The notes under the pieces were generated by a model. That model did not search any database. It was not told the DNA's origin and saw nothing but the letters and a program-made list of their open reading frames with translations. A DNA stretch of 64,000 nucleotides from a virus. The position numbers and the translations under genes were made by a program. Shown one piece after another: positions 3,585 through 35,800 of this stretch; within the stretch, counting starts at the first letter, position 1, and the number at the start of each line of letters is the position of its first letter. The stretch spans positions 1-64,000 of IMG/VR virus record IMGVR_UViG_3300019129_000002. One strand, given 5' to 3'.

Positions 3585-3614
3585 TTGTCAAACTCCTAAC
3601 CCTTGTGTTATAAT
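3585..3614 (+). promoter_or_regulatory. Sigma70-like promoter
   Basis: TTGTCA 3585-3590, 18 bp, TATAAT 3609-3614 with TG one base upstream (extended -10). Drives the nucleotidyltransferase at 3658. Confidence 0.75.
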
Positions 3615-4676: not shown

Positions 4677-4705
4677 TTGTCAGAGAGGCTAAAATCTGTT
4701 ATAAT
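4677..4705 (+). promoter_or_regulatory. Sigma70-like promoter of the modification cluster
   Basis: TTGTCA 4677-4682, 17 bp, TATAAT 4700-4705. About 125 bp upstream of the glutamine amidotransferase ATG. No other clear promoter lies between it and the kinase gene end, so 4830-8420 may be one transcript. Confidence 0.7.
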
Positions 4706-4829: not shown

Positions 4830-5459
4830 ATGTGTGCAATATTTGGGTGTGCCTTAGACAAAGCCACCTCTTATCAAAAACAACTATTGGAAGCAATAGG
4901 CAGAGAGTCTCAGATCCGGGGGAAGCACTCTACAGGGATTTCTTACATCCGTTTTGGAGTAATACGGACAGTAATCAAAACCGTACCCTCTAACCTATTC
5001 TTCGACGAAGTTATTGAATGGAAGTCTCCCGATAATCTTCGATTAATAGGACATTGTCGTTATCCTACATCTGCTTTGCGTTTCAATCAACCCCTACACT
5101 CTCCTGAGTTATCTATGGTGCATAACGGGGTAATCAGTCAACTCCCTAAAGAAAGATGGTTCGATGAGTTTGGTCTCCAGACAGAGACATCCAATGATTC
5201 CGAACTTATCCTAAGAGCGGTTGAGCAAGGTCTTGATCCAATAAAGTATTTCCCTGATGCTTCCATCGCTATGGCTACCTTAACGAAGGAAGGGGATATC
5301 CATGTCCAGAGAAACGGGAAACGTCCCTGTCACTTTCACCCTGTAGAGAATGGTTTTTTCTTCTTCTCAACCAAGAGTATAGGTGTCAGAGCAGGGGTTC
5401 CAGAAGAAGACATCATCAAAGTAAAATCTTACGGAAAAGAACATATTGAATACAACTAA
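4830..5459 (+). CDS. Class-II glutamine amidotransferase
   Basis: The protein begins MCAIFGCA: Cys2, freed by Met removal, is the nucleophile of Ntn-type (class II) glutaminases. RESQIRGKHSTGISY, LIGHCRYPTSA, MVHNGVISQ and the SNDSELILRAVEQG segment follow the family order. It lacks any synthase domain (209 aa), so ammonia from glutamine must be passed to a partner; the overlapping amidoligase gene is the obvious one. An AGGAGG site precedes the start. Class-II glutaminases next to phage amidoligases were noted by Iyer, Aravind and colleagues. Confidence 0.85.
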   Translation: MCAIFGCALDKATSYQKQLLEAIGRESQIRGKHSTGISYIRFGVIRTVIKTVPSNLFFDEVIEWKSPDNLRLIGHCRYPTSALRFNQPLHSPELSMVHNGVISQLPKERWFDEFGLQTETSNDSELILRAVEQGLDPIKYFPDASIAMATLTKEGDIHVQRNGKRPCHFHPVENGFFFFSTKSIGVRAGVPEEDIIKVKSYGKEHIEYN

Positions 5460-6312
5460 GACCTGGGGCTACGAAATAGAATGGGGTGATATCCCTCGAT
5501 GTTTACCTATTCCCGAACATCTAGGCTCGTGGGAATATGCTGAGGTTGACATTTTAAATCTTCGAGAACCTTATGCACTAATGGGGGTTGACCCTTTAGG
5601 TTTAGAGCCCCCTGTGGGAGGAGAAATCAACACCACTCCTGACAAATCTATCAAGGAACAAGTGGATAAGATTATCCGTCTCAGAGACTTATTCATTGAT
5701 TCAGGTTATCCTCCTACTGCATCCCTTGTTAATCATGGGCATTTACACGCATTTGTAAAAGGTTTGAAGGAAGATGTTCAAAGTCTAAAGAAACTGACCC
5801 GTTACATCCTGGATAATCAAGAAGACCTTATTAGAGCTTGCTATCAGTTCAAACCTGACCTAGAAATGAAGAAGCTGAAAAATGCGACTAGCTATCTGAA
5901 ACTGGACGGAGGACGAATGATGCCTGAATGGATGGGCAATAACGTTATTAACATGGCAGAAAGCTTTGAGGACTTCATTCGGATCCAATGTTGTGGAAAG
6001 GATGGAGTAAGCAGAGGGAGACCCTTCCGTTATGCAGTGAATACTTATTGTATGAAACATACAGGGACTATAGAGTTCCGTTGCTTCCGTAGTTCCACCA
6101 AACGAAGAGAGATTGAAAGTTGCTTCCGTATAGCGGAGAGGTTTATTGATAGTGCGTTGGGTGATCAAAAGCCTATAAAGGAAATCCTCCAAGAAGAAGA
6201 GTTCACTTTCCCTCCTTTTGTTTGGAACGCCGAACATTACAAAGCGTGGATTGAAACCAAGTGGGACAAATCTCGTGGTAACAAAAAACGCCAGTTTATA
6301 GAACTCTTGTAA
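5446..6312 (+). CDS. Amidoligase (COOH-NH2 ligase, glutamine-synthetase fold)
   Basis: The N-terminal WGYEIEWGD and central GGEINTTP, NHGHLHAF and C-terminal TIEFRCFRSS match the phage amidoligase family (Amidoligase_2-like), which joins a carboxylate to an amine with ATP; the Glu and His residues in these motifs are the expected metal ligands. Start is TTG 5446, overlapping the glutaminase by 14 bp, which implies coupled translation. Inferred role: adding an amine, perhaps glutamine-derived ammonia, to an acidic group on modified DNA or on a small metabolite. Peptide or cell-wall modification is the alternative. Confidence 0.75.
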   Translation: MNTTKTWGYEIEWGDIPRCLPIPEHLGSWEYAEVDILNLREPYALMGVDPLGLEPPVGGEINTTPDKSIKEQVDKIIRLRDLFIDSGYPPTASLVNHGHLHAFVKGLKEDVQSLKKLTRYILDNQEDLIRACYQFKPDLEMKKLKNATSYLKLDGGRMMPEWMGNNVINMAESFEDFIRIQCCGKDGVSRGRPFRYAVNTYCMKHTGTIEFRCFRSSTKRREIESCFRIAERFIDSALGDQKPIKEILQEEEFTFPPFVWNAEHYKAWIETKWDKSRGNKKRQFIELL

Positions 6313-6357
6313 CCTAACGGGTAAAATCCTCTGATGAATTAAATTAGAGGAAACCCC

Positions 6358-6888
6358 TTGGAAATTAGAGAGTGCAATAAAGAGATATTTAAATTAGCTT
6401 ACGAACAGAGTAACCCAAAAAATAACAAGTTCGCTAAAACTTTTATGTCTAAAGCGAAGGTAATGGAGTTATGGGATAAATGCTTCGGCATATATGATCC
6501 TAATGGCTCTCTTTTGGGAGCAGTGGTGGTAACCCTTTCTAAAAGGAAACCCCTTGTCGCTAACTTACAACTTCTCCACGTCTTCCATGAGCATCGAAAA
6601 AACGGTTATGGTAGATGTCTGATGGAGTTTGCACTTTCTCACGCCGTGGATCAAGGGGCAGAATATTTCAGAGTATCTTCCGAACCGTCAGCAGTTAAGT
6701 TCTATGAGAGCTTAGGGTTGCGGATGATATGTGAACAGAAGAGTGGTTCTCAATTATCTTTTTCTAAGATAGGGGGCAAAACTTTTGATCTTTGTTATAA
6801 TGATAGTGAGGACACTCAGTTCCAAAAAGTAATCAACCATAAAGGTCGGGGTGGTTGCGTAAAGCTTCTTAGAGAGGGCAAACCCTAG
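6358..6888 (+). CDS. GNAT-family N-acetyltransferase
   Basis: LLGAVVVTLS, LQLLHVFHEHRKNGYGRCLMEFALSHA (an R/KxxGYG acetyl-CoA loop) and FYESLGLRM follow the GNAT order, with about 35 extra residues at the C-terminus. Start is probably TTG 6358 after AGAGG. It lies in the modification cluster; GNATs in phage DNA-hypermodification loci are thought to acylate the attached amino group. Substrate here is unknown. Confidence 0.8.
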   Translation: MEIRECNKEIFKLAYEQSNPKNNKFAKTFMSKAKVMELWDKCFGIYDPNGSLLGAVVVTLSKRKPLVANLQLLHVFHEHRKNGYGRCLMEFALSHAVDQGAEYFRVSSEPSAVKFYESLGLRMICEQKSGSQLSFSKIGGKTFDLCYNDSEDTQFQKVINHKGRGGCVKLLREGKP

Positions 6889-6928
6889 TCCCATCTTTTT
6901 TGGTGATCTACCTTGTGCCTCCGGGTGT

Positions 6929-7990
6929 GTGAGGAATGTTAATGAAACTAAGAAAGAAAGGATGTACCAAACTTCTAGGAAAGAACAGTTTATCGAATGG
7001 TTCCGATGGGGAGTAGCTAACGGAGATTGTGACTCAGCTCTCTGGATGATAAACTATCTTAACAAACGTTACGAACACAACACGGAAGAAAAAATTTGGC
7101 TGTGTTGGCTCTACGGTAACACCTACTACTTGCCAACATCTTGGCTTCTTAAGCAAGAGTTTCCTGATGAGGAGCTTGCCAGTTACGAAAGACTTGATAA
7201 ATGGAATACAGAAAACTACAAACGTCTAAGGTATCAAACCGATACCAAGTGGTCTAAGGGTCATCTACCTGAGATGTATCAGAGTTATCATGAATGGCTG
7301 GGTGGCAAGACTCAACTTGAACGAATAAACGAGTTTGTCACAGATGATGAACAAGAGACCTTTGACAACCTTTGGAAAGAAGTCAAGAAGAAATGGTTTA
7401 AGTTCGGTAGATATACCGCTTGGTTTTATCTGCAAACTTTGAAGCACACGGTGAGTATCTCTATGGAACCTGCCACCCTGATGCTAAATGACTACTCAGG
7501 GAGTAAAAGTCATCGGAATGGTTTAATCTACGCTTTAGGGTTGGAGGGCTCTGGATGGTTGAATAAAAAGCTAACCATTGATCAGTACCAGTTCTTAGAG
7601 GGGGAGGCTTCTGAAATCCTTGAGGAGTGTCACAGGCGTTTTCCTGAACTTAAGGGGCAGATGGATAGGTTCGCCATGGAAACATCCCTTTGTTCATTCA
7701 AGAAGCTCTTCAGGGAGTCCAGGGGCCGTTACATGGGTTATTACCTTGATCGGCAATCCGAAGAAATCATGAGGGTGGAAAAGGATGGTTGGTTCGGAGT
7801 GGATTGGGAAGTCCTCTGGGATGGCAGAGAAGAAGTTATCGGTGAACCTTTAGCTCCTCTTTATGGGCGGGTTGACAAAAGCAAAATGAAGTTATTTGTA
7901 GAAGAAGGGAGGTTCCATTATAAAAGTGATCGGATTCATAGGGTGTCCAGCGTCCGGAAAGTCAACTCTAATGAGACGGTTAATGTCTGA
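6929..7990 (+). CDS. Amino acid:DNA transferase (aGPT-Pplase2/ADDT family)
   Basis: Segments WLCWLYGNTYYLPTSW, RLRYQTDTKWSKGHLP, KFGRYTAWFYLQTLK and HRNGLIYALG are hallmarks of the alpha-glutamyl/putrescinyl-thymine pyrophosphorylase clade 2, later shown in other phages to displace the pyrophosphate of activated hydroxymethyl-dU in DNA with an amino acid. Start is GTG 6929 or ATG 6962. The 3' end overlaps the kinase gene by 65 bp; the last 20 residues may therefore be constrained by two frames. This gene is the strongest single marker that the phage DNA carries a hypermodified thymine. Confidence 0.8.
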   Translation: MRNVNETKKERMYQTSRKEQFIEWFRWGVANGDCDSALWMINYLNKRYEHNTEEKIWLCWLYGNTYYLPTSWLLKQEFPDEELASYERLDKWNTENYKRLRYQTDTKWSKGHLPEMYQSYHEWLGGKTQLERINEFVTDDEQETFDNLWKEVKKKWFKFGRYTAWFYLQTLKHTVSISMEPATLMLNDYSGSKSHRNGLIYALGLEGSGWLNKKLTIDQYQFLEGEASEILEECHRRFPELKGQMDRFAMETSLCSFKKLFRESRGRYMGYYLDRQSEEIMRVEKDGWFGVDWEVLWDGREEVIGEPLAPLYGRVDKSKMKLFVEEGRFHYKSDRIHRVSSVRKVNSNETVNV

Positions 7991-8420
7991 GATAGGAGAT
8001 GAATGGGAGTTAGTTCAGGAAGGAATGATCCGGTTTCATTTCAATGCTCAGAAGAACGTTATGGTGATGGGGATATATGATGATAAAGTTTTTAGTGGAA
8101 CTGACCGTCTAGCTAAGAACGTGGGGCCAAAGTTCCGAGAATGGATTTCTGCATTCCACGAACAAGACACCGTTACCATATTGTGGGAAGGAGAGAGATT
8201 CTCTAACAACCCTACTATCCAACATCTGTTAAAAACTGTAGATACTGAACTCTATCTAGTGGAAGCTCCAGAGGAAGTTCTAGAAGAACGTAATCGTAAT
8301 CGGAGCAACCAGAATGACAAGTGGCGTAAAGGTATGAAGACTCGGATTAACAATCTGGTTAAAAAATATCCTATCAAACCCTTGTCTGAGTTCGACAAAA
8401 ATGTTATAATGAAAAAGTAA
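7926..8420 (+). CDS. 5-hydroxymethyl-deoxyuridine DNA kinase (HMUDK-like P-loop kinase)
   Basis: Walker A GCPASGKST at residues 6-14. The phrase VMGIYDDKVFSGTDRLAKNV and the acidic WEGERF are typical of the P-loop kinases that phosphorylate hydroxymethyluracil in DNA for later replacement. LID-like Arg residues lie in EERNRNRSNQNDKWRKG. GTG start inside the end of the transferase gene, so the pair is translationally coupled. A general nucleotide kinase is the alternative, but the FSGTDRL segment and the neighbour argue for HMUDK. Confidence 0.75.
   Translation: MIGFIGCPASGKSTLMRRLMSEIGDEWELVQEGMIRFHFNAQKNVMVMGIYDDKVFSGTDRLAKNVGPKFREWISAFHEQDTVTILWEGERFSNNPTIQHLLKTVDTELYLVEAPEEVLEERNRNRSNQNDKWRKGMKTRINNLVKKYPIKPLSEFDKNVIMKK
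8382..8410 (+). promoter_or_regulatory. Sigma70-like promoter inside kinase 3' end
   Basis: TTGTCT 8382-8387, 17 bp, TATAAT 8405-8410. Positioned for 8438. Confidence 0.6.
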
Positions 8421-8437: not shown

Positions 8438-8620
8438 ATGCCAACTTTAGAACCCCCTGATAGAAGACCCGACGGGAGAATAAAGAAGCCTGAACCCGTT
8501 GAAGTAAACCCTCTTGCTGGTTTGACTAGTGACCAGTTGCTTGATAAGAGAAATGTTTTTAAGAAACTGAAGCAACCCTTAAACGAAATTGATGCAGAAC
8601 TAAAAAGAAGACATGGTTAA
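8438..8620 (+). CDS. Small hypothetical protein (60 aa)
   Basis: Pro/Lys-rich N-terminus and a helical C-terminus. AAGGAGTAAGGAGT repeats give a strong ribosome site. Overlaps the methylase start by 8 bp. Not recognised. Confidence 0.6.
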   Translation: MPTLEPPDRRPDGRIKKPEPVEVNPLAGLTSDQLLDKRNVFKKLKQPLNEIDAELKRRHG

Positions 8621-9452
8621 AACACCTTTACGATACCCTGGGGGTAAATCCCGAGCAATCAAACATCTGAAAGGCTTTCTCCCTTATCTTGGGAATGAGG
8701 AGTTTGAAGAGTTCTGTGAACCCTTTGCAGGTGGGGCTTCGGTCTCCATCTATATTTCTCAACTTTACCCAGAACTAAAAATCTGGATCAATGACATCTA
8801 CACCCCTTTATACAACTTCTGGATTACTTTGCAGCAAGAGCCTATGGAGCTTATCCCCGAGTTGGAAAAGATAAGAGTAGAAACTGTCAATCTAGAGGAT
8901 GACCTCCGACACAGGAAGTGTAAAGAGAGGTTCCTGCAAGCCAAGGAAGAACTGGATTCAGAAGATCCTATAGTCAGTGCCATCAGTTTCTACATCGTTA
9001 ACAAGTGTGGATTCAGTGGTATGATTACAGGTTTTTCTAAGAGTTCATCCGATAAAACGTTTACTCTCAGAGGAATAGAAAAGCTCTGGTTAGTAAAACA
9101 CCTTATCCGAGATTGGTCTATTACCAATCTATCCTATGAGGACTTGCTAACTAATAGTCAAAAGACCTTTATTTATCACGACCCTCCCTATGAAATAAAC
9201 TCTAGTCTTTACGGGAAACAAGGAAGTGTCCATAAGGTTTTCGACCACGTTAACTTTGCTGAGAACTGCAACCTATTCACTTGTCCTCAACTAATCTCTT
9301 ACAATGATACTCAAAAAGTCACAGAGAGATTTTCGGGTTGGCATCAAGGCAGGTTTAAGCATCAGTATTCTATGCAGTCTGGTAAGAAGTACCGAGAAAA
9401 TCAAAAGAAACGTCACGAGTTAGTCCTATACAACTACGAACTGGAGGAATAA
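8613..9452 (+). CDS. Dam-like DNA adenine N6-methyltransferase
   Basis: Alpha-class order: RYPGGKSRAIKHL (motif X) at the N-terminus, EPFAGGASVS (motif I), then catalytic DPPY in FIYHDPPYE near residue 190. Length (279 aa) fits Dam/T4 Dam relatives, which methylate adenine in short sites such as GATC. No restriction enzyme is adjacent, so protection of phage DNA or regulation is likely. A second Dam-like gene lies at 31859. Confidence 0.85.
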   Translation: MVKTPLRYPGGKSRAIKHLKGFLPYLGNEEFEEFCEPFAGGASVSIYISQLYPELKIWINDIYTPLYNFWITLQQEPMELIPELEKIRVETVNLEDDLRHRKCKERFLQAKEELDSEDPIVSAISFYIVNKCGFSGMITGFSKSSSDKTFTLRGIEKLWLVKHLIRDWSITNLSYEDLLTNSQKTFIYHDPPYEINSSLYGKQGSVHKVFDHVNFAENCNLFTCPQLISYNDTQKVTERFSGWHQGRFKHQYSMQSGKKYRENQKKRHELVLYNYELEE

Positions 9453-13246: not shown

Positions 13247-13275
13247 TTGTCATCCTCTAAAGGGTTTGTTATAAT
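13247..13275 (+). promoter_or_regulatory. Sigma70-like promoter
   Basis: TTGTCA 13247-13252, 17 bp, TATAAT 13270-13275 with TG upstream. Drives 13336. Confidence 0.75.
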
Positions 13276-31749: not shown

Positions 31750-31866
31750 AGGGTCTCCCTCCCTTCAAAAACCCGAGTATGTTGTCCTTACTGTAAAAAG
31801 GAGACAAGTATTATCGGTATAACTAGAAATCATACATCAAAAACTGGAGAAAAAATCTATGACTAA
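31750..31866 (+). pseudogene. Startless zinc-finger fragment
   Basis: An open frame without any start codon reads TRVCCPYCKKETSIIGITRNHTSK, like the small C-x-x-C...H phage zinc fingers that often precede Dam genes. It runs into the start of the second Dam gene. Likely a remnant or frameshifted small gene. Confidence 0.35.
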
Positions 31867-32701
31867 ACCCCTTTTTATGTGGGCAGGTGGAAAGACCAAA
31901 AGGATCAAGCATTACCAACCTTTCCTTAAAAAAGTTACCTCTTATTGTGAACCTTTCTTTGGGGGAGGAGCTATGTTCATCCACATGAAAAAAGAGTTTG
32001 GTATAAGAGAGGCTTATATAAATGATATTCATCTTGAAGTCATGGATATTTACCGTACCATTAAATTTGATGTAGAAGGTTTTCTTAAAATCCTGGAAGA
32101 TTTAGAAAGAATCTATATGCCTCTGGACAAAGAGGGGAGGAAGGGTTACTATTACGACCTGAGGAACAAAAATGCCTGGGATTATAAAATGTGGGACTTA
32201 ACTCAACGTTCTGCTATCTTATACTTCCTGATGAGAACCTCCTTTAACGGTATCTACGAACTCAGAAAGAATACAAATGGAAGGTATGCAACCTCTTGTG
32301 GAAAAGTAGACCAGAAGAAGGAAGTCTTTTCTAGAGAAGTAGTCAGGTGGTGGCATAAGAACCTTCAAGATGTAACCATTACCCACGGGAACTGGAAGGA
32401 AAATCTACCAGAAGGTGACATCTTTTATTTCTTAGATCCTCCGTACAGAGGGACAAGAATGAAATACGGTACAGGATTTAGTGATCAAGATCTGGAAGAC
32501 CTCTTAGAGTTCGCCAAAGATAAAAAGTCTATGGTTTGCAACCAAGACTTAGGAGATGGATGGTTTGATAGCTACTCCGATGACTTCCATATACATAGAT
32601 TCCCCATAACCTACACAGTCGGAGTAAAGAAGAAAACGCCCGATGGTTACAAAGCCAAACCAGCTACAGAAGTTCTATTATTACCAAAAGGAGGAAAGTA
32701 A
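31859..32701 (+). CDS. Second Dam-like DNA adenine methyltransferase
   Basis: MWAGGKTKRIKHY (motif X), EPFFGGGAMF (motif I) and catalytic DPPY in FLDPPYRGTRMKYG are in alpha-class order. 280 aa. It is only distantly similar to the enzyme at 8613 (different target region), so two specificities are likely. CTGGAG ribosome site before ATG. Confidence 0.85.
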   Translation: MTKPLFMWAGGKTKRIKHYQPFLKKVTSYCEPFFGGGAMFIHMKKEFGIREAYINDIHLEVMDIYRTIKFDVEGFLKILEDLERIYMPLDKEGRKGYYYDLRNKNAWDYKMWDLTQRSAILYFLMRTSFNGIYELRKNTNGRYATSCGKVDQKKEVFSREVVRWWHKNLQDVTITHGNWKENLPEGDIFYFLDPPYRGTRMKYGTGFSDQDLEDLLEFAKDKKSMVCNQDLGDGWFDSYSDDFHIHRFPITYTVGVKKKTPDGYKAKPATEVLLLPKGGK

Positions 32702-34024: not shown

Positions 34025-34054
34025 TTGTCAACTCCAATAAAAAGTTGTTATAAT
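34025..34054 (+). promoter_or_regulatory. Sigma70-like promoter of the dioxygenase unit
   Basis: TTGTCA 34025-34030, 18 bp, TATAAT 34049-34054 with TG upstream. Drives 34086 and probably the TET/JBP gene at 34508. Confidence 0.8.
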
Positions 34055-34085: not shown

Positions 34086-34469
34086 ATGACATCTACCAAT
34101 ACAACCGTTAAAACCATCGAACGTATCCCTTCTTCTCTCAAGGGTAATGCTCTTGTAAAATACCAAAGGTTATTAGTTGCGCGTAACGCAATGAAAGCAG
34201 CCGGCAAACGCTGTGATATGATTGAAGACATGATGAGAACTCTTGTAGCTCAATCTCGCACTAAAGGAACTGACCTCCATCTATCCGAACGTTGGGAAGA
34301 AAACTCTAAAGAACGTCTCACCCGTCCGGTCTATCGCGTAACCAAACAAACTAGATACTTCTGTTCTGAAAAACATGACAACCGTGAATATCCTAACGCT
34401 GACCGTGTAGGACTCGAAATCCAAAGTCGCTTTAATCAACTTCCCACAAAACCCGTTCTTCGTAAGTAA
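34086..34469 (+). CDS. Basic hypothetical protein (127 aa)
   Basis: Rich in Arg and Lys, with a helical centre (LLVARNAMKAAGKRCDMIEDMM). Directly upstream of the dioxygenase and under the same promoter, so it might serve DNA modification as a DNA-binding partner. Not recognised. Confidence 0.6.
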   Translation: MTSTNTTVKTIERIPSSLKGNALVKYQRLLVARNAMKAAGKRCDMIEDMMRTLVAQSRTKGTDLHLSERWEENSKERLTRPVYRVTKQTRYFCSEKHDNREYPNADRVGLEIQSRFNQLPTKPVLRK

Positions 34470-34507: not shown

Positions 34508-35767
34508 ATGGTATTGAGATTAGTAAAAACTCCCATCAGTTGCGAACACTTGTTAGGAACATTCCTTGATGAAAGCCATTTCGATAACTTATTCGATCAA
34601 GACGTGGACATCATCGATGCCAATACGGGGGAGGTTGCAGTATCCTTTCGGAAAGGTTGCTTAGATAGCTACCACTCCCTCTCCCCTAAAGCCTTAAAAC
34701 TGCTCAAAAGTGCCTCCAAGACAATCACATACTCTCGTAATCTTGCTGCTGGCAAAAAGCTTAACACCCGTACTGGTCCAGGTGGTAAATCTGGTCGCGA
34801 ACGTGCAACTCTCGGTGAGGTAGAACTACTCAACCAACTTATTAATAAACATCCAAGTGAAGTTAAGTTTGAAGTCCTCAACAAAACCGAACTCAGTGTC
34901 TTCCCCTGGTTGAAACCTAAGACTACCGACAACTTCGATCTCAAAGTGTGGGCTGAGGAACTCCGAGCAAATCTGGTTCCCGAACTATGGGCTACTGAAG
35001 CGAAAGCTATTAAGAAGAAATACCTCGCTTCCACTGGTAGAGGTAACGGAGCAGAGTCAGGTATAATAGGAGCCATTGAAAAAACCTCCCGTCAACCTTA
35101 CTGTCGTATGTCCTATATCGCCCGTAACAACTGGGAAACCTTCCAAGAGTGCTTCCCGCTGGTAGAACAAATCTCTGACATTTACCTTCAATGTTCTCCT
35201 AAACAACATGAACTCCAAAGATTAAAAGCTCAGAAAACTGACCCTCGTTATCTTATCGGTGACAGTGTGTTCTCTACCATTACCGTTAACCACAACTTCC
35301 GCACAGCAGCTCACCGTGACCCCGGCAACTATGGGAAATCCTTAGCACCTTTAGTAACCATTTCTGAAACTGGGTTCTCTGGTTCCTACTTGGTATTCCC
35401 TGAGTTCCGTGCTGCTGTAACACTACAACCTTCAGATTTCATCGTCTGTAACAATGCTCTTTATATTCATGGGAACACAGCCGCCGGCTCACTGGATGAT
35501 GAGCGTATCAGTTTAGTTCTTTATCTCCGCGAAGGTTTAGCGACTAAATGTTGCTCCTATGAAATTGAAGATGCCCGTCAGGAGTTTGTCTTCCACCTCC
35601 GTTCTCAGAAAGCGACTCACCCTTTGTCTACTGGAAACCGTTGGCAAGGGGTATACTCAGGTATGTGGGAAAAAGATGAGTGGTATAACTACTTAGAAGA
35701 AAAGCAAGGCAAAGAGGCCGTAGATTTTTGGAAAGAGTTCCGTATCCAACAAAAGAAAAATAAGTAA
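34508..35767 (+). CDS. TET/JBP-family 2-oxoglutarate/Fe(II) DNA dioxygenase
   Basis: The core reads NHNFRTAAHRDPGNYG, SGSYLVFPEF...AVTLQPSDF, YIHGNT and DDERISLVLYLRE. Iron ligands are His269, Asp271 and His321, with Arg333 for 2-oxoglutarate; the NFRTAxHxDxG and ERISxVxYxR strings are specific to TET/JBP. JBP enzymes oxidise thymine to 5-hydroxymethyluracil, TETs oxidise 5-methylcytosine. With a hydroxymethyl-dU kinase and amino-acid:DNA transferase at 6.9-8.4 kb, and no cytosine-C5 methylase seen, thymine is the likelier target. The N-terminal 220 residues form an extra domain; a GGKSGRERATLGE segment there is unexplained. Confidence 0.85.
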   Translation: MVLRLVKTPISCEHLLGTFLDESHFDNLFDQDVDIIDANTGEVAVSFRKGCLDSYHSLSPKALKLLKSASKTITYSRNLAAGKKLNTRTGPGGKSGRERATLGEVELLNQLINKHPSEVKFEVLNKTELSVFPWLKPKTTDNFDLKVWAEELRANLVPELWATEAKAIKKKYLASTGRGNGAESGIIGAIEKTSRQPYCRMSYIARNNWETFQECFPLVEQISDIYLQCSPKQHELQRLKAQKTDPRYLIGDSVFSTITVNHNFRTAAHRDPGNYGKSLAPLVTISETGFSGSYLVFPEFRAAVTLQPSDFIVCNNALYIHGNTAAGSLDDERISLVLYLREGLATKCCSYEIEDARQEFVFHLRSQKATHPLSTGNRWQGVYSGMWEKDEWYNYLEEKQGKEAVDFWKEFRIQQKKNK

Positions 35768-35772
35768 ACACC

Positions 35773-35800
35773 TTGTCAAACCCTATCAAGTTGTTATAAT
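35773..35800 (+). promoter_or_regulatory. Sigma70-like promoter
   Basis: TTGTCA 35773-35778, 16 bp, TATAAT 35795-35800 with TG upstream. Upstream of the exonuclease with a 140-bp leader. Confidence 0.7.

Follow-up and report, generated by a model that had tools for sequence, protein, structure and literature searches.

A TET/JBP-associated gene set predicted to hypermodify thymine in cyanophage DNA

Thymine hypermodification along a thymidylate synthase (TS) route has been described for the phages ViI, M6/PaMx11 and PhiW-14, and involves 5-hydroxymethyl-deoxyuridine (5hmdU), the kinase 5-HMUDK and transferases of the aGPT-Pplase/ADDT type (PMC6449724). In the Rhodococcus phage Tonitrus, a TET/JBP oxygenase, an ADDT and a kinase were reported as a predicted thymine hypermodification set (PMC11955845). 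Pairs of a class II glutamine amidotransferase (GAT) and an amidoligase are known from phiEco32, Marvin and MEP401, where a role in cell-wall or metabolite modification was proposed (PMC10580990). Here we analyzed a stretch of 64,000 bases (the window), comprising bases 1-64000 of the 64,890-base linear IMG/VR virus record IMGVR_UViG_3300019129_000002. Five adjacent genes at 4830-8420 and a TET/JBP gene at 34508-35767 combine the components of these systems, and it is likely that together they encode a post-replicative hypermodification of thymine that is started by TET/JBP and continued by a kinase, an ADDT and tailoring enzymes. All six open reading frames (ORFs) are intact and free of internal stops:

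4830..5459, + strand: GAT, stand-alone class II (Ntn) glutamine amidotransferase/glutaminase, 209 amino acids (PF13522, invariant residues, PurF-type PDB matches)
5446..6312, + strand: AMID, glutamine synthetase (GS)-like COOH-NH2 ligase (amidoligase), 288 amino acids (weak PF12224, invariant residues, predicted fold)
6358..6888, + strand: GNAT N-acyltransferase, 176 amino acids (PF13673, family alignment)
6929..7990, + strand: ADDT (aGPT-Pplase2) amino acid:DNA transferase, 353 amino acids (PF18724, phrog_3271, fold near PUGT)
7926..8420, + strand: KIN, P-loop kinase (Ploopntkinase3 / phrog_800), predicted hydroxymethyl-pyrimidine DNA kinase, 164 amino acids
34508..35767, + strand: TET/JBP 2-oxoglutarate-Fe(II) oxygenase, predicted thymine-5-methyl hydroxylase acting in DNA, 419 amino acids (PF12851, phrog_24024)

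Conserved linkage and family assignment of the six genes

More than chance is at work, as dozens of divergent viral contigs carry the same genes in the same order. IMG/VR was scanned with the ADDT and amidoligase alignments as queries, and 80 of the 236 and 80 of the 182 confirmed candidate loci, respectively, were analyzed by tblastn and ORF clustering. The order in these 160 relatives is TET-GAT-(AMID-GNAT or second GNAT)-ADDT-KIN. It occurs as variant A (TET-GAT-AMID-GNAT-ADDT-KIN), as variant B, which lacks the amidoligase (TET-GAT-second GNAT-ADDT-KIN), and as variant C, which carries a low-molecular-weight phosphatase (TET-GAT-AMID-phosphatase-ADDT-KIN). Among 31 viral loci that were non-redundant at 95% ADDT identity and had enough flank, GAT and ADDT were present in all, KIN and TET in 30 each and AMID in 25, while GNAT was found in 20, the second GNAT in six and the phosphatase in five. 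Non-redundant amidoligase loci likewise contained ADDT wherever the downstream flank sufficed (17/17) and TET wherever both flanks did (10/10). TET and GAT overlap by a median of 1 nucleotide (nt) in the 31 loci, the median distance from the end of TET to the start of GAT is about 0 nt (126-132 loci), and that between GAT and AMID is -20 nt. The preliminary description of this DNA had linked the distant TET gene to the five-gene run, and the position of TET directly upstream of GAT in the relatives bears this out. The operon normally begins with TET, and the window phage, in which TET stands apart, is the exception. In many relatives the cluster has T4-like replication genes as neighbors (DnaB-type helicase, UvsX, family B polymerase), which indicates that the module moves between phage groups.

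The transferase and the oxygenase were assigned with high scores. ADDT matches PF18724 (5.6e-22, 79 bits against a cutoff of 26.2), a match that was recovered in a whole-record search also, and phrog_3271 (7e-52); the placement of 6929-7990 in this family therefore holds. The nearest solved fold to its AF2 model (pTM 0.85) is PUGT (8z2m/8z2n), the 5-phosphomethyl-dU glycinyltransferase of phage PaMx11 (probability 0.99, TM 0.45/0.53). When ADDT and the M6-like PUGT-type transferase were compared by sequence profile, no match emerged (0.4%), so that PUGT is linked to ADDT by fold alone. By this analogy, ADDT is predicted to transfer an amine nucleophile onto phosphorylated 5hmdU in DNA. TET matches Tet_JBP (PF12851; 7.1e-21, 74.6 bits against a cutoff of 34.9) and phrog_24024 (5.6e-75). 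Its active site, HxD...H...R, is conserved, with H269/D271 and H321 in 117/117 sequences and R333 in 115/117.

The kinase had been regarded as an HMUDK, an assignment that requires revision. Pfam HMUDK (PF18748) was matched by five of six TS-route kinases, but not by the window kinase at E<=1. The latter matches AAA_33 (8e-8) and, just below the cutoff of 27 bits, Ploopntkinase3 (PF18751; 7.6e-6, 26.0 bits); of the 31 sequences in the alignment of the window kinase family, 30 match this profile at E<=0.01, the best of them at 2.4e-20. What stands of the earlier assignment is a relationship: phrog_800 is common to the window kinase, PhiW-14 gp37 and the M6-like kinases, and hhalign aligned the KIN profile with the TS-route kinases over 122 columns (96.9%, E 1.9e-10). 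Two control P-loop proteins, used as single sequences, reached 3.9% and 30.9%, confined to the P-loop. Thus, the window kinase is predicted to work like HMUDK, yet to belong to the sister family Ploopntkinase3. A kinase 36.9% identical to it occurs in phage Melnitz beside a C5-methylase and a TET; because the same family accompanies these genes, the kinase alone is no proof of thymine as the substrate, and "hydroxymethyl-pyrimidine DNA kinase" is the better name. For phrog_800, the name "terminase small subunit" misleads. Under this name or that of "adenylate kinase", phage records list members of the hydroxymethyl-pyrimidine DNA kinase superfamily (in our loci, L008:2884-3483, L005:11989-12534 and L252:4956-5741), and these labels on phrog_800-type kinases are likely an annotation error across many records.

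For the remaining three genes the families proposed in the preliminary description were all upheld, although the amidoligase profile is weak and the call is backed by residues and fold. GAT matches GATase_6 (PF13522) at 3.7e-6 and 27.4 bits (cutoff 27) in a Pfam search and shows PDB matches of PurF type. Its catalytic residues C2, R77, N99-G100 and D123 are invariant across 23 relatives, which leaves the class II set intact. AMID falls below the cutoff of Amidoligase_2 (PF12224; E 0.064, 13.5 bits against 22), and its relatives reach 18.1 bits. In an alignment of 29 members, however, E10-x-E12, H99-x-H101 and E210-F-R212 are invariant. The motifs ExE, HxH and EFR supply the acidic and basic residues expected at the metal/ATP site of GS-like ligases. 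The AlphaFold model (pLDDT 92.7) has glutamine synthetases, GshA and PafA as its best structural matches, with a glutamine synthetase as the top PDB match in Foldseek (probability 0.96, E 3e-3). These residues and the modelled fold rescue 5446-6312 as a putative GS-like amidoligase despite its profile score. GNAT matches PF13673 (2.6e-10, 40.8 bits against a cutoff of 23.6).

The arrangement in the window was evaluated with a promoter-like motif of the extended -10 type, TTGTCA-N13-15-TGNTATAAT, which occurs phage-wide. Eight exact sites lie in the window, all on the + strand, against none expected in shuffles; sites include 3585-3614, 4677-4705, 13247-13275 and 34025-34054. The following sites flank the genes under study:

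4677..4705, + strand: promoter-like site TTGTCA-N14-TGTTATAAT preceding the five-gene unit (exact motif match)
8382..8410, + strand: next promoter-like site, at the end of the five-gene unit within the end of the kinase gene (one mismatch)
34025..34054, + strand: promoter-like site ahead of the ORF 34086-34469 and TET (same motif)
35773..35800, + strand: promoter-like site bounding the TET unit (same motif)

The motif copies are predicted to define the transcription units of this cyanophage. Their positions suggest that the five genes are transcribed together, and that TET and the preceding ORF form another unit governed by a promoter of the same kind. A single promoter for the five genes, as proposed earlier, agrees with the copy at 4677-4705 being followed by the next only at 8382-8410. 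The genes had also been called mostly overlapping, which is incorrect: two of the four junctions overlap (GAT/AMID by 14 nt, ADDT/KIN by 65 nt) and the other two are gapped by 45 and 40 nt. Shine-Dalgarno sequences precede GAT (AGGAGG) and KIN (AGGGAGG).

Several further features were observed in the relatives. The low-molecular-weight phosphatase gene adjoins the amidoligase in variant C (L091-L097) and in phage Simon (L009:6857-7378). A 433-amino-acid ORF with homing-endonuclease-like and ParB-like parts (L151:9422-10720 and 38 relatives) is repeatedly inserted between GNAT and ADDT and is probably a homing element. The 201,260-base record L115, which is of jumbo-phage size, carries two Tet_JBP genes and two amidoligases; a survey from 2021 listed no TET/JBP in jumbo phages (PMC7824862).

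Predicted reactions and the role of the tailoring genes

Based on gene families, linkage and the absence of alternatives, the pathway would begin with hydroxylation of the thymine methyl group in phage DNA by TET, giving 5hmdU. The P-loop kinase would phosphorylate this to 5-phosphomethyl-dU, and ADDT, judging from its family and nearest fold, would replace the phosphate with an amine nucleophile, either an amino acid or ammonia. The adduct would then be tailored by GAT, the amidoligase and GNAT. The modification presumably protects the phage DNA from host nucleases.

For the tailoring steps we favor, tentatively, a chemistry based on ammonia. GAT would supply ammonia to the ADDT step, yielding an amine of the 5-aminomethyl-dU type, to which the ATP-dependent amidoligase would later join an amino acid by an amide bond before GNAT adds an acyl cap. 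The product would be a peptide-like, acylated thymine, so far undescribed and made entirely on DNA, by a pathway widespread in aquatic phages. This chemistry is preferred because GAT is kept wherever the ADDT subfamily occurs, whereas the amidoligase is optional. By its distribution, GAT tracks the ADDT subfamily rather than the amidoligase.

A different chemistry, essentially that of the preliminary description, is possible but somewhat doubtful. ADDT would attach an amino acid through its amine to 5-phosphomethyl-dU, GAT and the amidoligase would together amidate the carboxylate, and GNAT would acylate the amine. This fits the adjacent and usually overlapping positions of GAT and AMID, the GS fold of AMID, as GS makes amides from ammonia, and the attachment of glycine by PUGT, the closest solved relative of ADDT. 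Profile searches for GAT and the amidoligase, however, found nine variant B contigs, fragmentary ones, with GAT and no amidoligase, and phage Simon with the amidoligase and no GAT. Since each is found without the other, neither appears to require its partner. The two functions thus seem separable, and a joint addition of an amide, although weakened, is only one option among others.

GAT, the amidoligase and GNAT might also form a separate peptide or cell-wall module that merely neighbors a minimal TET-kinase-ADDT system. The GAT and amidoligase pairs of other phages, with their proposed cell-wall modification (PMC10580990), point in this direction, as does the minimal TET-ADDT-kinase set of Cr30 and Bane1, in which profile searches found neither the GAT nor the amidoligase family. 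Against this, nearly every locus has these genes placed between TET and ADDT, GAT is present in 31/31, and the amidoligase subfamily was never seen apart from ADDT wherever the flank sufficed (17/17); in Simon it is located inside a TS-kinase-ADDT cluster. We therefore regard an independent module as unlikely.

Source of the hydroxymethyl group and identity of the modified base

The prediction that 5hmdU arises in DNA through TET had been based on the lack of a dUMP hydroxymethylase in the window. This lack was confirmed and extends further: TS-type hydroxymethylases (PF00303) were found neither in the whole 64.9 kb record nor in 14 relatives (50-201 kb) or Bane1, all of which carry Tet_JBP, and C5-methylases (PF00145) neither in these nor in Cr30. 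Formation of 5hmdU in DNA by TET is thus the most likely origin. Conversely, Simon, Cygsa01 and Vibrio phage 1.244.A, which lack TET, encode ADDT together with a divergent TS (42-80 bits), and the combination of TET and a divergent TS with ADDT was never encountered in the records tested. Because the two are mutually exclusive there, TET and the TS-type hydroxymethylase appear to be alternative sources of the same intermediate. As PUGT, the nearest solved relative of ADDT, acts on 5-phosphomethyl-dU, thymine is favored as the base, and the gene content supports a TET that oxidizes thymine in DNA rather than 5-methylcytosine (5mC).

In a cytosine route, TET would oxidize 5mC made by a C5-methylase, and kinase and ADDT would decorate the resulting 5-hydroxymethylcytosine. 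Related phage TETs are indeed linked to C5-methylases, and phages of the Melnitz type pair a C5-methylase and a TET with the same kinase family. In these phages, TET came right after the C5-methylase in 62/62 eligible loci. The C5-methylase-linked TETs, however, form one clade (support 99/99) apart from the ADDT-linked TETs, in a tree that leaves the exact placement of the window TET and of Bane1 gp2, both on long branches, unsure. Together with the missing PF00145 in the record, the relatives of up to 201 kb and Cr30, the substrate of PUGT and the co-occurrence of ADDT with TS-type enzymes, this makes a cytosine route improbable for the window phage. The conserved order in the Melnitz type is C5-methylase, TET, a 427-amino-acid protein and kinase (L004:4010-8090, L179-L249). 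No ADDT was found in Melnitz, and the 427-amino-acid protein between TET and kinase was rejected as a candidate, as it is not recognizable as one. This gene set is itself a candidate cytosine hypermodification system.

It is very improbable that the absent portion of the genome codes for a TS-type hydroxymethylase that provides 5hmdU at the nucleotide level while TET does something else: the record is linear and incomplete and ViI/M6-type phages take the TS route, but PF00303 is missing from the relatives including records of 150-201 kb, TET and a divergent TS exclude each other beside ADDT, and TET overlaps GAT in relatives.

Some observations weigh against a TET-initiated thymine pathway or its preferred chemistry. 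The record is a 64.9 kb linear fragment, whereas the nearest named relative has 139 kb, and the absence of TS and C5-methylase genes from it is weak when taken alone. Cr30, a phage with the complete TET, ADDT and kinase set, also has a TS, which at 373 bits resembles ordinary ThyA. In Foldseek, the E-value of the fold match between ADDT and PUGT is no better than 0.13, the kinase family also stands beside C5-methylase and TET in the Melnitz type, and pairs of GAT and amidoligase are known from phages without TET and ADDT, with a cell-wall role proposed (PMC10580990). The feeding of ADDT by GAT is inferred from co-occurrence. Finally, the window TET forms a long branch, is about 32% identical to the TET of Cr30 and is detached from the operon, so that its substrate could have drifted.

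Host, significance and relation to known systems

The virus was correctly described as a cyanophage, as judged from portal (51%) and polymerase (42%) identities to Synechococcus phage S-CBWM1, with S-TIM5 next closest. S-CBWM1 has a TET related to that of the window, and no ADDT was found in it. In this sister cyanophage, TET is followed by a phosphoheptose isomerase and a nucleotidyltransferase (L007:3729-7139), which may serve to decorate the same handle with a sugar. Among viral contigs, the sole match of single-protein scans was a record of 42 kb that comes from the same sample and is 100% identical. Genome contigs scanned for ADDT relatives gave none, and a single amidoligase locus was located on a viral-looking 3.6 kb contig in a metagenome-assembled genome of Actinomycetota. 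The window also contains three adenine-methylase loci (1803-2986, 8613-9452 and 31859-32701), one of a two-ORF N6 type and two of D12 types.

The preliminary description had expected a thymine derivative outside the described ones, in a cyanophage. The novelty is narrower than this: the TET, ADDT and kinase core is known from Cr30, Bane1 and Tonitrus, and a TS-type thymine hypermodification cluster is already annotated in cyanophage Pam3. For the full set of six genes, glutaminase and amidoligase included, no description was found in the literature searched, which did not include the Iyer 2013 prediction paper; as far as could be checked, the extension by GAT, amidoligase and GNAT is an undescribed variant. 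If the proposed pathway is correct, hypermodification of thymine would need no special nucleotide pool, the handle being made in DNA by TET. The modification would be decoupled from replication and could be site-selective, and with glutaminase and amidoligase the phage would bring amide chemistry to DNA, widening the range of known thymine derivatives. The cluster is common among aquatic relatives, which number in the hundreds, with 236 ADDT and 182 amidoligase candidate loci confirmed in IMG/VR, and its enzymes are candidates for labelling thymine in DNA. Since cultured phages (Bane1-type mycobacteriophages, Cr30) carry the minimal set, oxidation of thymine versus 5mC by phage TETs is directly testable.

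The described systems share different parts of the gene set. With phiEco32, Marvin and MEP401 the window phage has the enzyme classes GAT and amidoligase in common, for which no TET/ADDT context was reported there. Phages of the Melnitz type share TET/JBP and a related kinase but differ in the adjoining C5-methylase and the separate TET clade. Simon possesses the same amidoligase family (193 bits), ADDT and kinase; unlike the window phage, it has a divergent TS, an FAD oxidase and a low-molecular-weight phosphatase and neither TET nor GAT. Cr30, Bane1 and Tonitrus share the core of TET/JBP, aGPT-Pplase2/ADDT and a P-loop kinase. Cr30 and Bane1 differ by lacking GAT and amidoligase of these families, and the Caulobacter phage Cr30 has a TAGT-like glycosyltransferase beside ADDT. 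In mycobacteriophage Bane1, which infects a laboratory host, gp2-gp4 (L008:806-3483) constitute the minimal TET-ADDT-kinase set, with 27.8 bits for Tet_JBP, which is below the cutoff, and 37.2 bits for ADDT.

The TS-route phages ViI, M6/PaMx11 and PhiW-14 resemble the window phage in the action, predicted for the latter, of a kinase and an ADDT-type transferase on 5hmdU in DNA. M6-like clusters, which consist of FAD oxidase, GNAT, kinase, transferase and TS, also have GNAT beside the kinase. This content fits the path of PaMx11, which reaches acetylated 5-aminomethyl-dU via glycine addition, FAD oxidase and GNAT. The window set has GAT and amidoligase instead of the FAD oxidase, and its kinase probably comes from the sister family Ploopntkinase3. 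Whereas the hydroxymethyl group of the TS-route phages is provided by a TS-type enzyme acting on dUMP, that of the window phage would be generated by TET in the DNA itself.

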